Shown in pieces: positions 14,614-34,370 of a DNA stretch of 38,748 bases. The stretch comes from Bacteroidota bacterium (GTDB lineage: Bacteria; Bacteroidota; Ignavibacteria; UBA10030; BY39). Made by a program: the position numbers and the translations under genes. The stretch is taken from the NCBI GenBank assembly GCA_030017895.1, contig JASEGV010000025.1:1-38748 (forward strand), written 5' to 3'. The stretch's first letter is position 1; every line of letters starts with the position of its first letter. Under the pieces are notes generated by a model, which was not told where the DNA came from, ran no database searches, and was given only the letters and a program-made list of their open reading frames with translations.

Positions 14614-15897
14614 TTAAAAATTATAAATAATCATTAGCCGATTAAATATTGGATTTAAATCGGTTTGTTGTATTCCAGCAAAACCGGAGAACAACAAATG
14701 ATTTTGGCTCCCATAATTAAAATTATAAATCAAATTAAAATTATCAAAGTTATATTCTAATCCTGTCGTTATAGTCGGAATAAAAGTACTATGTGAAGGT
14801 TTAATATAATATTTTACGGTATCATACTTACCTTCATAATTACCTTGGTACTTGTAATATTCAAATCCAAATCGACATTGCAATTCGTCAGTTAGATTAA
14901 CCTGAACACCCGATTTTAAACTCCAGTTCATAAATGTGTATTTAGATTTTTGATAATAAGAACCATACTCCTTTGGTTTATACTCATATATCAACCAAGC
15001 GGGTTCGATTGAAACTTCTGAAGCTAACATTATCACACCCGATTGGAAAATTCCACCAACTCCAAATTTTAGACTATATCCATCATAGGGGTCCATCTTT
15101 TTTTTATCTAAAGTGAATGTCCCGCCTATCAGGAGTGCATCATTTAATTTATGCTTATAGTCAGATTGGAATACCCAACCTTTTGTCATATCAAAAAATA
15201 ATAATTCTCTTTCCGATTGATAAAAACTCAACAACAGAGACAATTTATCAACATCATTTATTTTCATGTTTAAACCTCCCCGAACGATCAAATCATCAGT
15301 TTTACTGTGTTCATCAGGGTTTACAAAGTTTGTGGATTTTTCTTTGAAGGTATTTTTATCCACTCCTAATCCAAATGAAACCCAATCGCTAAATTCGTAC
15401 GACATAAAGGCAGCAAACGGATAACCCGTTTCTTTTGATTCAAATTTATAGACATTTCTCTGATAGCCTTCTTCAACCTGCTCCGATTTAAATTCGGTCG
15501 ATTGATAAGATATCTTACCTCCGATTAAAAACCTATCAAGTCTAAATATCCCCCCGATTGGACTTGATAAATGTGTATAACGCTGTTCATTGTGTGTAAT
15601 ATTGTAAAGCGATGGAGACAGTCGCTGTTCAAACTCGTTCTTCACCAATGTATGCGAAAGAGATAAAATTGTAAGATTATTTTTGATGAGATTACTTTTG
15701 GCTGGATTTATGAAAACATCCCGAATCGGATCATCTACAATGAATGCCAGACGACCCATCCCATCAGACCTTGAATTAATATCGAATGTCGGTTTAATTT
15801 GTAGGAAGGGAAATAATGATAGCTCGATGAACTGGGCATTAAGAATGTTACTGACTAACATTAAATTTAGAAATAAAATAAACATACGTCGTTGCAT
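14614..15897 (-). CDS. Outer-membrane beta-barrel protein, PorV/UPF0164-like
   Basis: A 427-residue exported protein with a signal peptide (MFILFLNLMLVSNILNAQ) followed by many alternating amphipathic strands rich in Tyr, Phe and Ser, ending LNPIFNRLMIIYNF with a C-terminal aromatic, as outer-membrane barrels do. The stretch IVDDPIRDVFINPA (about 52-65) is shared in pattern with the protein at 30087 and recalls PorV/FadL-like barrel proteins of Bacteroidota. Last gene of the leftward OMP-aroK-OMP group, 20 bp after aroK. No enzymatic motif seen; transport or secretion support is possible. Confidence 0.68.
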   Translation of the reverse strand: MQRRMFILFLNLMLVSNILNAQFIELSLFPFLQIKPTFDINSRSDGMGRLAFIVDDPIRDVFINPAKSNLIKNNLTILSLSHTLVKNEFEQRLSPSLYNITHNEQRYTHLSSPIGGIFRLDRFLIGGKISYQSTEFKSEQVEEGYQRNVYKFESKETGYPFAAFMSYEFSDWVSFGLGVDKNTFKEKSTNFVNPDEHSKTDDLIVRGGLNMKINDVDKLSLLLSFYQSERELLFFDMTKGWVFQSDYKHKLNDALLIGGTFTLDKKKMDPYDGYSLKFGVGGIFQSGVIMLASEVSIEPAWLIYEYKPKEYGSYYQKSKYTFMNWSLKSGVQVNLTDELQCRFGFEYYKYQGNYEGKYDTVKYYIKPSHSTFIPTITTGLEYNFDNFNLIYNFNYGSQNHLLFSGFAGIQQTDLNPIFNRLMIIYNF

Positions 15898-28149: not shown

Positions 28150-29811
28150 ATGGCGATTAACAGATTAAATTATTTTTTTCTTTACACACTATGCTTGCTG
28201 CTCTCTGCTCTAAGCTCTTCGCTCCTTTATTCTCAACCTGCACAACAGCATGCCATTCTTGTAATCATTGATGGAGCGAGATATTCTGAAACACTTGGCG
28301 ATCCCACAGGGCAGTATATTCCACGCATGAAACAACTCGCTACCCAATCCGCTGTTGTAGATACATTCCTCAACGACAGTGTAACAGTAACAAAGCGAGC
28401 GATCCCGGCAATCTGGTCGGGTTCGTGGAAAACTCCTCGCGATACAACTATCGGTGGTGTTGCAACCCAATATACTCTCGACCCAACTGTTTGGGAATAT
28501 TTCAGAAAACACCGAAATCAGGATTCAACTAATGCGATGTATATACTTAAACAACTATCAGGACCTTGGCTGCCAAGCTACCATCCACAATACGGTCCTC
28601 AATATTGGCCCTGGTATATAATGCAAGACGGTTACTGGAGCGACCTCTTTGTATGGAATCTTGCAAAACAAAAACTAAATGCACATCATCCTATATTTTC
28701 TGTAATCTATTTCGCCGATGTTGACGCTGCCGGTCACTCGGGTGATTGGAACAACTACACGCGTAAAATAACAATTGCTGATAGCATTGTAGGAATGATT
28801 TGGGATTACGTTCAAAGCGATTCGATATTTAAAAACCAAACTACACTCTTTGTAACCAACGACCACGGTCGTCATCTCGATGGTGTTTCAACAGGGTTTG
28901 TAAGCCACGGCGATGGATGCTGGGGATGCAGAAGAATCCAATTACTCGCAATTGGCAGTGGAGCAAAGAAAGGAGTTTCCTCAACCAAACGTAGAATTCC
29001 CGATATCGTTCCTACTATCGGAGCTTTGTTAAATTTCACATCTCCATTTTCTACCGGCACTGCAATGACTGAAATTCTAAAGCCGATTATCTCAATCGAT
29101 AAAAAATCCATTAACTTCGGAACTTTACCGTTTTCATCATCAAAAACGGATAGTATAATCGTCTATAATTCAGGAGGCAGCAGCTTGAACATTACCACCT
29201 CCACCCCATCGAGTTTTTCAATAAATCCGACAAGTACATCTATATTACCTCATACAAATCGAAAATTTTATATCACATTTTCTCCTACAAATTCCGACAG
29301 CATATCATCTTTCATTATAATCAATCACAACGATGAACATTTGAGAGATACAATCAGAGTATCGGGAAAAGGAACCCAACGCATCCCAGTTGCAGTCAAT
29401 AAAGGATGGAACTTAATATCTTTGCCACTTTCAGTCGATAATGGTCGGATAAACTCGCTCTTTACGAATACAACTTCGTTTGCATTTTCATACGATGGGC
29501 AGTATATTCAAACCGATTCATTGAAAAAAGGAATCGGATATTGGTTGAAATTCGATTCAACAATGAACTTTAATATTACAGGAATTGAATTTTTAACTGG
29601 CACTATTGATGTTGCAGCAGGTTGGAATTTAATCGGCTCTGTGTCTCAGCCGATCTTAGTCTCTTCAATTCAGACAATTCCAGGTGAAATAATTTCTTCA
29701 AGTTTTTACGGATACGATAATTCGTATATTGATGTGAACACAATTTTACCCGGAAAAGGTTACTGGATAAAGGTAAACGCTACCGGTAAATTAATCTTGA
29801 AAGGTAATTAA
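28150..29811 (+). CDS. Secreted alkaline-phosphatase-superfamily protein with C-terminal beta domains
   Basis: A 553-residue exported protein. Residues 1-29 form the signal peptide. The metal-dependent hydrolase domain (about 33-315) has ILVIIDGAR (Asp41), a likely Thr nucleophile in DSVTVTKRAIP (about 76-86), ADVDAAGHSGD and TNDHGRHLDG with SHGDGC, the two-metal ligand set of phosphodiesterase/sulfatase-like enzymes. An Ig-like choice-of-anchor domain (about 318-420, INFGTLPFSSS) follows, then two copies of a GWNLISLPL-type domain (about 424-480 and 494-550), each ending GYW-K. Typical of secreted proteins in Ignavibacteria-like genomes. The physiological substrate is unknown. Confidence 0.75.
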   Translation: MAINRLNYFFLYTLCLLLSALSSSLLYSQPAQQHAILVIIDGARYSETLGDPTGQYIPRMKQLATQSAVVDTFLNDSVTVTKRAIPAIWSGSWKTPRDTTIGGVATQYTLDPTVWEYFRKHRNQDSTNAMYILKQLSGPWLPSYHPQYGPQYWPWYIMQDGYWSDLFVWNLAKQKLNAHHPIFSVIYFADVDAAGHSGDWNNYTRKITIADSIVGMIWDYVQSDSIFKNQTTLFVTNDHGRHLDGVSTGFVSHGDGCWGCRRIQLLAIGSGAKKGVSSTKRRIPDIVPTIGALLNFTSPFSTGTAMTEILKPIISIDKKSINFGTLPFSSSKTDSIIVYNSGGSSLNITTSTPSSFSINPTSTSILPHTNRKFYITFSPTNSDSISSFIIINHNDEHLRDTIRVSGKGTQRIPVAVNKGWNLISLPLSVDNGRINSLFTNTTSFAFSYDGQYIQTDSLKKGIGYWLKFDSTMNFNITGIEFLTGTIDVAAGWNLIGSVSQPILVSSIQTIPGEIISSSFYGYDNSYIDVNTILPGKGYWIKVNATGKLILKGN

Positions 29812-29812
29812 T

Positions 29813-30060
29813 TTGAATTATGTAGAAAGAATAAAAAGCAGCGGTGTGGTGGGTTGCGGCGGTGCGGGCTTTCCTGCTCACGTCAAGGCAGCATTAAAAG
29901 TTTAATATGTAATAGCAAATAAAGCTGAATGCGAATCACTTTTGGATAAAGATTTGGAATTAATGAAACATGAACCCGAAGTGGTTGTTGGTTGGCTGAA
30001 TAATGATTTTTACTTACTTGCTCAAAAAAAGAAATAATCGCCTTTATAATTAATAAAATA
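29813..30060 (+). pseudogene. Decayed 5' copy of the pduS-like gene
   Basis: The frame from TTG 29813 reads NYVERIKSSGVVGCGGAGFPAH and continues with AECESLLDKDLELM and HEPEVVVG, clearly the start of the protein encoded at 31659. A GAA codon of the intact gene (in KVEYVIAN) is TAA here, and later the match shifts by one frame (KKEIIAF against KKAIIGV) and fades near 30060. Only about 80 codons are recognisable. It is two bases past the phosphatase stop. It represents either a tandem duplicate that decayed or the residue of a recombination that inserted the outer-membrane gene at 30087. Confidence 0.88.
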
Positions 30061-30086
30061 TCAATCAATATTAAGGAGTTTTATTT

Positions 30087-31577
30087 ATGAAACATAACGG
30101 ATTTCTTTTAGCCATGTTAAGCCTCCTCATTTATCACAATTCAAATGCTCAATATTACCAATACTATCTGAGTGACCCATATAGCACTTCGATAGTCTTT
30201 GATAATATCTTCACACTTCCAAAACCCACAGACTCATATCAATCGCAAAGAATGCGGACATTTTCTGAAGGCTCATTCGGTCTAATACTGGACGATTACT
30301 CAGACCATTTCCGCAATCCAGCATATTTGATAGAGGGTAATAAAAATGAAATTTTTGGTGATTTAGGATCTATTCAGGATAATGGTAAATTCTTTTTAGG
30401 GGGGTTTGTTCCAATTGTAGACAAATCATTAGGTATATCTATCAATCTTGAAGGTTTGAAAAAATACAAAAACACAACAGAATATAATTCTTCTAGTTTA
30501 GACCAAGATTATATAAATACATTTACAGAAGAAAACTCTCCCAAAAAATATGGGACAAGATTAAGTTTTTCAAGCCCTATCAGCTCTGAAGTAACTGCCG
30601 GTGTAAGCTATCATTTTTTAAAATTTGAAGCACGAACCCAGTCGAGTCAAATCAGAAATAATTCTTCCTCATCAAATTATTATGATTATATAAGATTATT
30701 AGATTTATCAAAATTTGGAACAATCCATAAAATTGATGCTGGAACATTATTAAATTTTACAAAATTTGTTTTGGATTTGAAAACAACGTTATTATTTTCA
30801 TCACACCAATCCAAAAGTCAGGATGAAACAACAACTCGTTCATCATCTTTGATAGAATATTTTGCGAGGATCGGACCCACAGATATCGATACACGAGGCG
30901 GATTAATTTCAGCGTTACTAAGTTACACGTCTCCGGATAAAAGTCATTATCTCAGATTCTTGGTTCAGTCGGGCTATACCTCGTATGACATAAAAGGTAT
31001 TTTAATCCAAATGGACACTGTTAGATATTTGCCTGGACCCGCTTATAAATATATTTTAAATAGTACACGCGAAGGAGATGGAACCGTTTTAGATATCAGA
31101 AGTGGTTGCAGCTATGAAAGAAATTTTTCTGAAACTTTTATGGCTTTTGGTGCTATTTCAGTGAATTATATTCTCCATAAAACAAATATTTCAGAAAATG
31201 GGAACCGTAGTTATATTGGTAACATTACAACTACAGAAAATATTTCAAAAACTCCATCAGAAACGACAGAAACTATAGACATTCGATTACCTATAGTTAT
31301 CGAATATTATCATGGTGATTATGTAATTCTGCGAGGTGGGGTCGAACCAAAATATAGATCAGGTGAAACAATAAAATCTTTTCTGACTAGTGAAATTTAC
31401 AACAATAGTGCTCTTACCTACGGGCATAAAAATGAAATAACACGTAATGAATTATCACTGACATTAAATTTCGGTGCAACTTTCAAACATAACGATTATG
31501 GTGCTGTAGATTTACTCTTTGGTAATGTTTTAACAGATACGAAATTCTGGTCAATATCTATAAGGTTATTTTTATAA
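30087..31577 (+). CDS. Outer-membrane beta-barrel protein, distant paralogue of the 14614 gene
   Basis: A 496-residue exported protein with signal peptide MKHNGFLLAMLSLLIYHNSNA, then beta-strand-rich sequence with many Tyr, Ser and Asn residues, ending TKFWSISIRLFL with an aromatic near the C terminus as in outer-membrane barrels. LILDDYSDHFRNPA (about 70-83) matches the pattern IVDDPIRDVFINPA in the other barrel protein. Good ribosome site AAGGAG eight bases before the ATG. It lies between the pduS pseudogene and intact pduS. Function unknown; no evidence for a link to the microcompartment beyond position. Confidence 0.65.
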   Translation: MKHNGFLLAMLSLLIYHNSNAQYYQYYLSDPYSTSIVFDNIFTLPKPTDSYQSQRMRTFSEGSFGLILDDYSDHFRNPAYLIEGNKNEIFGDLGSIQDNGKFFLGGFVPIVDKSLGISINLEGLKKYKNTTEYNSSSLDQDYINTFTEENSPKKYGTRLSFSSPISSEVTAGVSYHFLKFEARTQSSQIRNNSSSSNYYDYIRLLDLSKFGTIHKIDAGTLLNFTKFVLDLKTTLLFSSHQSKSQDETTTRSSSLIEYFARIGPTDIDTRGGLISALLSYTSPDKSHYLRFLVQSGYTSYDIKGILIQMDTVRYLPGPAYKYILNSTREGDGTVLDIRSGCSYERNFSETFMAFGAISVNYILHKTNISENGNRSYIGNITTTENISKTPSETTETIDIRLPIVIEYYHGDYVILRGGVEPKYRSGETIKSFLTSEIYNNSALTYGHKNEITRNELSLTLNFGATFKHNDYGAVDLLFGNVLTDTKFWSISIRLFL

Positions 31578-31658
31578 GCACTATGTCACCCTGATTTTAA
31601 AATATTACTCGATGAAATTTATTATATTTAACCAACACTTAACTAACAGGATTAAAAA

Positions 31659-32972
31659 TTGACATACATAGAAAGAATCAGATCGGCAGGCGTTGTCGGC
31701 TGCGGCGGTGCCGGATTTCCCGCCCACATCAAGGCTTCTTCCAAAGTTGAATATGTGATAGCAAATGGCGCCGAGTGTGAACCGCTCCTTCATAAAGATT
31801 TGGAATTAATGATACATGAACCTGAAGCGGTTGTGGGTGGACTGATCCAGTGGTTAGTTTCTACAGGTTCAAAAAAAGCAATCATTGGCGTAAAGCGAAA
31901 GCACGAAGAATCTCTTTCGGGTTTAAAGAAAGCGGCTGAAAATACAAACATCCAACTAAATTGGCTTGGCGATTTTTATCCCACCGGTGATGAGTATGTT
32001 CTGGTTTATGAAACAACAAAACGTTTAATTCCGCCACAAGGTATTCCATTAGATGTAGGTATCGTTGTAAATAATGTGGAAACATTACGTAACGCGTATC
32101 TGGCATCGGAAGGAATTCCGGTTACACACAAATACATTTCAGTTGTTGGGGCAGTAAATAAACCATCTACACTTTTAGTCCCTATCGGAATTAGTTTTGC
32201 GGAAGTAATCGCGGCGGCTGGTGGTGCTAATGTTTCCGACTTCGCCGTCTTCATCAGCGGTATTATGATGGGAACGCTCACAACCGATATGAGTTTACCT
32301 ATTACAAAAACTTGCGCCGGACTTGTTGTTCTTCCTATGGAGCATCGACTTGTAAAACGTAAAAGTTTACCCGAGACCTCGATGCACCGAATCGGGAAAT
32401 CAGCATGCGACCAGTGCAGTTACTGCACGGAGTTTTGTCCGCGTTACTTGCTTGGCTACGATGTTCAGCCACATAAAGTTATGCGAAGCCTCGGTTTTAC
32501 TGTAACCGGCGAAGCATTATGGAATCAATATGCTCAGCTTTGCTGTGCTTGCGGCTTGTGCACGTTGTATGCCTGCCCTGAAGATTTATATCCAAAAGAA
32601 GCATGCGACCGTGCTAAATCGGATTTACGCGCTAAAGGAATGAAGTGGGAAGGCAAACGCGATGTTAAAGTCCACCCTCTTGGCGAAGGTCGCCGAACTC
32701 CTTTAAAACAACTCGTAAAAAAATTAGGTGTTGATCGCTACGATGGACCGGCACATTTTGAAGATGTGAAATTTTCACCTAATATTGTTCGCATACCTCT
32801 TTCACAGCACATCGGTTCACCCGCTTTGCCTATGGTCAATGTTGGAAAAGCAGTAAAGATAGGTGATGTAATTGGTGATATTCCGGATGGAAAATTAGGA
32901 GCACGTATTCACTCAAGCATCGACGGAGTTGTAACAAAGATTAATAGTGAAGTGGTGATTGAGAAGAAATGA
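31659..32972 (+). CDS. PduS-type RnfC-like flavin/iron-sulfur electron-transfer protein
   Basis: A 437-residue protein of the RnfC/PduS family. GVVGCGGAGFPAHIK (residues 10-24) opens a Complex1_51K-like FMN/NADH-binding domain; an SLBB domain follows (about 160-215). Two ferredoxin-type clusters are ligated by Cys250, 253, 256, 260 (CDQCSYCTEFC) and Cys295, 298, 301, 306 (CCACGLCTLYAC). A lipoyl-like barrel ends the chain (GAPALP-type and IHSSIDGVVTKI). PduS in the propanediol microcompartment is a flavoprotein that reduces cob(III)alamin and is thought to pass electrons through shell protein PduT. A PduT-like gene lies 750 bp downstream, supporting a microcompartment role over a membrane Rnf complex. 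TTG start with AGG upstream. Confidence 0.87.
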   Translation: MTYIERIRSAGVVGCGGAGFPAHIKASSKVEYVIANGAECEPLLHKDLELMIHEPEAVVGGLIQWLVSTGSKKAIIGVKRKHEESLSGLKKAAENTNIQLNWLGDFYPTGDEYVLVYETTKRLIPPQGIPLDVGIVVNNVETLRNAYLASEGIPVTHKYISVVGAVNKPSTLLVPIGISFAEVIAAAGGANVSDFAVFISGIMMGTLTTDMSLPITKTCAGLVVLPMEHRLVKRKSLPETSMHRIGKSACDQCSYCTEFCPRYLLGYDVQPHKVMRSLGFTVTGEALWNQYAQLCCACGLCTLYACPEDLYPKEACDRAKSDLRAKGMKWEGKRDVKVHPLGEGRRTPLKQLVKKLGVDRYDGPAHFEDVKFSPNIVRIPLSQHIGSPALPMVNVGKAVKIGDVIGDIPDGKLGARIHSSIDGVVTKINSEVVIEKK

Positions 32973-33083: not shown

Positions 33084-33647
33084 ATGGTGAAAACAAAATC
33101 TATAATACCAGTAGGATTGATCGAACAACGAATCTTTATCATCAGAGGATTAAAGGTAATGATCGACCGTGACCTTGCAGACCTCTATGCAGTTGAAACA
33201 AAATATTTGAATCGTCAAGTTAAACGTAATAAAGACCGATTCCCAAGTGAATTCATGTTCAAGCTTACGAAAAAAGAACGAAACGAACTGGTGACAAATT
33301 GGCACCGGTTCGATACACTTAAGCATTCGTATGTTTTACCATACGCCTTTACAGAACATGGTGTTGCTATGCTCGCATCTGTGCTGAAAAGTGAACGGGC
33401 TATAAAGATGAGTATAATGATTGTAAAAGCATTTGTGCGACTGAGAGAGTTCCTTGCAACGCAACGAGAACTATCAAAGAAAATCCACATTCTTGAATCG
33501 AAAATTGATACACACGATAAGGAAATTCATTCGATAATCGAAGCAATACGCCAACTTCTCCAACCACCTGAAAAACCAAAAAGAGAGATTGGGTTTCGTA
33601 TTTCAGAACCTAAAGTAATATACAGCACTCGAAGAAAGAACAAATAA
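33084..33647 (+). CDS. ORF6N-domain protein
   Basis: A 187-residue protein whose N-terminal half is the ORF6N DNA-binding domain: VGLIEQRIFIIRGLKVMIDRDLADLYAVETKYLNRQVKRN, then FPSEFMFKLTKKER. A coiled-coil-prone region (about 130-165, LATQRELSKKIHILESKI) and a basic tail (STRRKNK) follow. Such proteins are of phage ancestry but are scattered singly in chromosomes of this group. The frame extends to a TTG at 33039; the ATG at 33084 gives the usual N terminus. It lies between the pduS- and pduT-like genes without apparent functional connection. Confidence 0.82.
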   Translation: MVKTKSIIPVGLIEQRIFIIRGLKVMIDRDLADLYAVETKYLNRQVKRNKDRFPSEFMFKLTKKERNELVTNWHRFDTLKHSYVLPYAFTEHGVAMLASVLKSERAIKMSIMIVKAFVRLREFLATQRELSKKIHILESKIDTHDKEIHSIIEAIRQLLQPPEKPKREIGFRISEPKVIYSTRRKNK

Positions 33648-33723: not shown

Positions 33724-34278
33724 ATGATAGAAATGAATGCAATAGGACTTGTAGAATTATCGAGTATCGCGGCTGGCTTCGAGGTAGCAGATACGATGCT
33801 CAAAACTTCGGAAGTAGAACTTCTCGTTATGCGAAGTATCTGCTCGGGAAAATTTATGGTCTTGGTTGGCGGCGACGTAGCAGCCGTTCGTGCAAGTGTT
33901 GAAGCCGGAGAACGAACTGGAGCCGGTTGTGTAGTGGATGCTATGGTAATACCCAATGTCCATAAATCGGTTTTCCCTGCAATCTCCGGTATGAGTCAGG
34001 TTGAAGTGCTTGAGGCGCTCGGTATCGTTGAGTCGTTTAGTGTTGCTTCACTTATCGAAGCGGCAGATGCATCAGCAAAAGCAGCGAATGTGAAGTTGAT
34101 TGAAGTCCGACTTGCAATGGCATTAGGAGGCAAAGCGTTTGTGACAATGACAGGTGAGGTTGCTGCTGTCCGCTCGGCAGTTGAAGCGGGCGCTTCAGTA
34201 TGTGCTAAACGCGGATTGTTGGTAAATAAAGTCGTTATAGCAAATCCGAAAAAGGAGTTGCTGAAAGAGATGATATGA
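33724..34278 (+). CDS. PduT-type tandem-BMC shell protein with Fe-S Cys
   Basis: A 184-residue protein with two BMC domains (about 5-88 and 95-180), hence a trimeric pseudohexameric shell protein (BMC-T). Domain one: AIGLVELSSIAAGFEVADTML; domain two: ALGIVESFSVASLIEAAD. The segment RSICSGKFMVLVGGD with Cys40 matches the loop of PduT whose Cys38 binds a [4Fe-4S] cluster at the trimer axis, and the link PNVHKSVFPAISG matches PduT too. This cluster would let electrons cross a microcompartment shell, with PduS as partner. AGGA precedes the ATG. No further shell gene is visible in the window. Confidence 0.9.
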   Translation: MIEMNAIGLVELSSIAAGFEVADTMLKTSEVELLVMRSICSGKFMVLVGGDVAAVRASVEAGERTGAGCVVDAMVIPNVHKSVFPAISGMSQVEVLEALGIVESFSVASLIEAADASAKAANVKLIEVRLAMALGGKAFVTMTGEVAAVRSAVEAGASVCAKRGLLVNKVVIANPKKELLKEMI

Positions 34279-34296
34279 TTTGGGATTTAAGGAAAA

Positions 34297-34324
34297 AATC
34301 AGAAATCCGAAATCAGAAATCCGA
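34297..34324. repeat. Two tandem 14-bp repeats
   Basis: AATCAGAAATCCGA occurs twice head to tail at 34297-34310 and 34311-34324, followed by a partial third unit. It resembles the words of the intergenic element at 2312-2512 (AATACGAAATCCGAA) and lies in the leader of the ECF sigma gene. Confidence 0.7.
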
Positions 34325-34370
34325 AATTGAATAAATTCCCTCCACAAGTGTATCATATACAGAAGCTCAA

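Follow-up and report, generated by a model that had tools for sequence, protein, structure and literature searches.

A decayed 5′ stub of pduS beside a genus-restricted gene in the pduS-pduT locus of an Ignavibacteria-type Bacteroidota genome

RESULTS

Gene content of the pduS locus

The window, which is the whole stretch of 38,748 nucleotides analyzed here, is contig C25 of a 3.2-Mb genome in 176 contigs (G000). Its plus strand carries, in order, mutS, a phosphatase-like gene, a stub of pduS, an outer membrane protein (OMP)-like gene, intact pduS, an ORF6N gene, and a pduT-like shell gene. The features discussed below are as follows.

28150 to 29811, plus strand: phosphatase-like gene, the ancestral upstream neighbor of pduS, with Metalloenzyme and HYDIN-type Ig Pfam matches; its orthologue overlaps pduS in G002 and G004
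29813 to 30038, plus strand: decayed pduS 5′ stub, codons 1 to about 76 (226 bases), with a TTG start, a TAA, and a frameshift near 30000
30087 to 31577, plus strand: inserted genus-specific gene, probably for an outer membrane beta-barrel protein, judging from its signal peptide-like start and aromatic C terminus
31659 to 32972, plus strand: intact pduS, 437 amino acids, TTG start, with Complex1_51K, SLBB, 4Fe-4S dicluster, and RnfC_N barrel-sandwich domains
33099 to 33647, plus strand: ORF6N-domain gene between pduS and pduT, a second insertion, confined within the family to this genus
33724 to 34278, plus strand: gene for a pduT-like tandem-BMC shell protein, the usual downstream neighbor of pduS

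The phosphatase-like gene ends 1 nt ahead of the stub. The OMP gene has no Pfam or NCBIfam match, and we rejected it as a copy of the other OMP gene of the window (14614 to 15897), as the two show no similarity (E value, 0.20). The product of intact pduS is 37 to 38% identical to annotated Salmonella PduS over 95 to 98% of the query. It lacks the N-terminal part of RnfC of about 120 residues, its residue 4 aligning with RnfC residue 124, and it scores 223.7 on the rnfC model, for which the cutoff is 245.95. In this and almost every related locus read, a pduT-like gene lies downstream of pduS, and more BMC shell genes are found on contig C55, separate from the contig of this locus.

Two further differences were seen between G000 and the other species of the genus (G001). 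The ORF6N genes of the two (33099 to 33647 and L034:9420-9965) share 96.7% DNA identity, with 0.89 at 4-fold sites compared with 0.60 to 0.70 for their neighbors, and their 5′ flanks differ; several further ORF6N genes occur in the same genome, and this one may have moved or been exchanged after the species split. G001 also has an insertion (L034:10604-11300) between pduT and a sigma-factor gene, where the window is empty (34279 to 34370). This insertion carries a gene with a YHIYNRG motif that resembles those for REP-associated tyrosine transposases; close to either end lies a palindrome.

A partial pduS pseudogene precedes the OMP gene

Positions 29813 to 29998 align without gaps with the start of intact pduS (31659 to 31844), 140 of 186 bases being the same (75.3%), and the local alignment score is 160, a value compared with which none of 300 shuffles exceeded 30. 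Over 62 gap-free codons, the stub has 75 to 77% amino acid identity to the product of intact pduS (31659 to 32972). A 1-nt indel near codon 62 (about 30000) breaks the frame, and codon 31 is TAA (29903 to 29905) where intact pduS has GAA, so that the stub translates as LNYVERIKSSGVVGCGGAGFPAHVKAALKV*YVIANKAECESLLDKDLELMKHEPEVVVGWL. Homology extends from the start codon to near 30038, its tail (30015 to 30038) matching intact pduS at 31862 to 31885 with a shuffle P value of 0.005, but in A-rich sequence. The remaining 360 or so codons of pduS (77 to 437) were not detectable in 30046 to 31658 (score, 17; shuffles, 13 to 21.5). In a whole-genome translated search, the stub was the only second piece of pduS (E value, 1.9e-25; 75% identity; residues 2 to 64; one TAA), and all remaining matches were remote NuoF/RnfC-type proteins with 27 to 29% identity.

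A preliminary description of this DNA had placed a decayed second pduS copy at 29813, with a GAA-to-TAA nonsense change and a frameshift, and the alignment bears out all of this. Its count of some 80 matching codons reflects a real match, of which about 62 are cleanly aligned and about 76 are present in all. The string LLDKDLELM that it assigned to both copies occurs in the stub, intact pduS having LLHKDLELM, and its end point of 30060 runs too far, since 30050 to 30086 or so is the leader of the OMP gene. Judged by its sequence, 29813 to 30038 is a partial pduS pseudogene, an ordinary and dead gene remnant, and annotators should not label it a second pduS.

The stub occupies the ancestral pduS slot

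To place the stub, gene order was compared with that in relatives, namely G001, the sister genus (G002 and G004), and the third genus of the family (G003). In the sister genus, the last 23 nt of the phosphatase gene lie within pduS, and neither an OMP nor an ORF6N gene lies between the phosphatase gene, pduS, and pduT. In G003, a relic of the phosphatase gene lies between mutS and pduS and reads QPVQQHVILVNIDSARYAE, the window counterpart being QPAQQHAILVIIDGARYSE. This scrap of about 20 codons (L036:1640-1880, minus strand, contig C10) stands beside a perfect GC-rich hairpin, CCCGTCCCGAAGGCATTCGGGACGGG. Apparent breaks in pduS were seen in two more genomes: in G006 (C116:3485-4265), a frame change and a stop appear to disrupt the gene, and in G010 (C15:7593-8948), it appears to be interrupted by a short insertion that leaves the frame open.

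Of the 98 genomes of the order, 3 have an OMP homologue. Two of these are both species of this genus, whose copies are 71% identical; the third is the only one among the other 96 genomes (33%), and the gene is absent from the remainder of the family. The ancestral order of the family is thus mutS-phosphatase-pduS. Because pduS of the sister genus directly overlaps the phosphatase gene, with no OMP gene between, the position of the stub is the original one of pduS, and it is the OMP gene that arrived later. Relatives outside the genus lack the OMP gene at this locus, and their single pduS directly follows the phosphatase gene, which is the outcome that the preliminary description expected; we refine its proposal in that the ancestral position is held by the stub and not by the intact copy. 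We are highly confident in this core, which comprises the homology, the lesions, the gene order in relatives, and the genus-restricted OMP gene. It gives one local rearrangement a direction: phosphatase-pduS is ancestral, the OMP gene arrived at the level of the genus, and pduS was kept beside pduT throughout.

The insertion predates the split of the two species

In G001, the OMP gene lies at the same place with the same leader (about 30050 to 30086 in the window), which implies that the insertion predates the species split. In a profile test, the G001 spacer matches pduS columns 151 to 181 or so (29 nt) at 22.3 bits, compared with at most 18.1 bits in 300 shuffles and at most 20.3 bits in 80 overlapping control intergenic windows; by a simple pairwise test, the same 29-nt scrap is weak (P values of 0.02 to 0.17). 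On this sequence match, the scrap is probably a remnant of the same stub. As G001 shares both the OMP insertion and this probable remnant, the stub probably arose before the two known species of the genus diverged. The alignment pattern in G001, a deletion bounded by two AATTAAT copies, suggests that its stub may have been lost by deletion between them.

Phylogenetic trees were built on the 186 clean bases, so that placements and branch ratios carry wide error. The best tree joins the stub with G003, with which it shares six sites (codons 2 and 7 to 10) against both intact copies of the genus. A tree with the stub as sister to both intact copies is also among the best, being 1.6 log units worse. 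Placing the stub inside the intact copies costs 5.2 log units, which is not significant (approximately unbiased [AU] test, P = 0.11). Formation of the stub after the species split is disfavored.

The stub has decayed under relaxed constraint while intact pduS is conserved

At sites that are otherwise unanimous in the family, the stub has changed at 6 of 44 first positions and 4 of 56 second positions; the corresponding number is 0 to 2 for G003 and for the intact copies of the genus. The ratio of first- plus second-position change to third-position change, a branch ratio with wide error, is about 0.47 for the stub (0.16 to above 1) and 0.07 for the intact pduS lineage (0.02 to 0.22), and the first- plus second-position branch is longer in the stub than in intact pduS in 96% of 200 bootstraps. 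These patterns indicate relaxed constraint on the stub, and either fully neutral decay since birth or a working phase followed by decay would fit. Branch lengths by codon position carry too large an error to date the onset of neutral decay.

Intact pduS of G000 and G001 has identities of 0.95, 0.99, and 0.70 at the three codon positions, a pattern indicative of purifying selection, and the suggestion made earlier that the retained copy is under selection is borne out. Within the gene, third positions of the first 186 bases (31659 to 31844) are the same at 33 of 62 codons between the two species (0.53), compared with 0.76 in the 3′ part and 0.75 in mutS; this stretch of high divergence is the very one duplicated in the stub. 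Gene conversion from the stub to one of the intact copies gained no support as its source, as the stub is equally close to both at third positions (35/62 and 36/62).

DISCUSSION

The succession of stub, insert, and complete gene, in which the stub lies where pduS lay ancestrally, leads us to a duplicative insertion as the likelier origin, a view held with moderate confidence for the explanation as a whole, its one-step mechanism included. In an ancestor of the genus, DNA with the OMP gene and a second pduS start would have entered the pduS locus. Downstream of the OMP gene, the body of pduS would have gained a new, whole 5′ end; the old one would have been severed and left without function. 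A one-ended homologous integration or a single crossover could produce stub, insert, and whole gene in one step. The stub would then have drifted, acquiring its nonsense codon and frameshift, with nearly all of it deleted in the sister species, and the intact copy would meanwhile have been kept by purifying selection together with pduT. The data support one event ahead of the species split; the one-step mechanism is inferred from the layout alone. Neither junction homology nor a mobile element was found, no donor was found among the 98 genomes of the order, and the 5′ and 3′ parts of pduS show no firm switch of affinity.

A tandem duplication of pduS within the genome is possible, if tentatively so: both copies would have been active for a while, the OMP gene would have landed in or next to the first, and the 3′ part of that copy would have been deleted. 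Most differences between stub and intact pduS are at third positions (identical bases, 51/62, 54/62, and 35/62 at the three positions), as if partly diverged while translated, and the tree with the stub as sister to both intact copies, which this history would give, is among the best. However, about three events are needed where one suffices, and the interval holds no trace of pduS codons 77 to 437 or of a duplicated phosphatase end. In particular, the sequence between the OMP gene and intact pduS does not significantly resemble the 3′ end of the phosphatase gene (P = 0.11). The 5′ limit of the duplicated stretch is the start codon, a place not favored by a random breakpoint. Homology from the start codon, with no copy of the phosphatase end, is more readily explained by a second 5′ end that brought along its own upstream DNA than by a local tandem copy. 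The preliminary description had left a choice between a tandem duplication and an insertion that copied the 5′ end of the gene; its interpretation is supported, and the insertion is the likelier of the two.

Within the duplicative insertion itself, the second start may have been foreign, the stub being the native 5′ end and both the OMP gene and the 5′ part of present pduS deriving from another lineage. We regard this sub-case as rather unlikely. The grouping of the stub with G003 in the best tree, the six sites in the first 30 bases that match G003 against G000 and G001, the lack of the OMP gene elsewhere in the family, and the lower third-position likeness of the 5′ 186 bases between G000 and G001 (0.53, compared with 0.76 in the 3′ part and 0.75 in mutS) all speak for it. 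Yet the other placement of the stub costs just 1.6 log units, whole-pduS distances follow those of mutS, and among the 98 genomes of the order none outside the genus was found to have this OMP gene beside pduS. On 186 aligned bases, the second start may be of foreign or of local origin. If it was foreign, present pduS would be a mosaic, and the stub would be a legible fossil of one-ended recombination in a microcompartment locus.

It is very improbable that codons 1 to 30 of the stub still serve a purpose, whether in translational coupling or by encoding a short leader peptide. A TTG-started frame of 30 codons does lie 1 nt after the phosphatase stop, and stub codons 5 to 27 contain no unique replacement, but the count is small, the partition was picked after viewing the data, and the stretch is entirely gone from G001. 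Finally, a remnant of an unrelated old RnfC/NuoF-family gene, for which the glycine-rich N-terminal motif common to the whole superfamily might be cited, is ruled out by the identity of the stub to pduS, which lies far above the level of distant RnfC-family members raised as a doubt in the preliminary description (75 to 77% over 62 codons, compared with 27 to 29% for the in-genome paralogues) and is colinear from the start codon.

The duplicative insertion that we prefer concerns a locus with known counterparts. PduS is the cobalamin reductase of the propanediol-utilization microcompartment, and in Citrobacter it interacts with PduT (PMC2982820). The gene described here shares the FMN-binding and 4Fe-4S domains and the adjoining PduT-like shell gene; it differs in being part of a small locus close to mutS and in belonging to an Ignavibacteria-type Bacteroidota genome. 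One tandem-BMC shell gene with pduS here, and other BMC genes on C55, also recall satellite-like BMC loci (PMC4207490), except that the two loci are on separate contigs.

For the rearrangement itself, our search of the literature on xenologous displacement within operons yielded no parallel closer than the type VI clusters of Vibrio cholerae, whose orphan immunity genes have been proposed as leftovers of homology-facilitated illegitimate recombination (PMC5361080), a process described in PMC3240628. Here, in contrast, the leftover is the dead 5′ stub of a metabolic gene, with a mechanism read from the layout only. In both cases, a module anchored in a conserved stretch would displace the resident, and the old piece stays beside the new.
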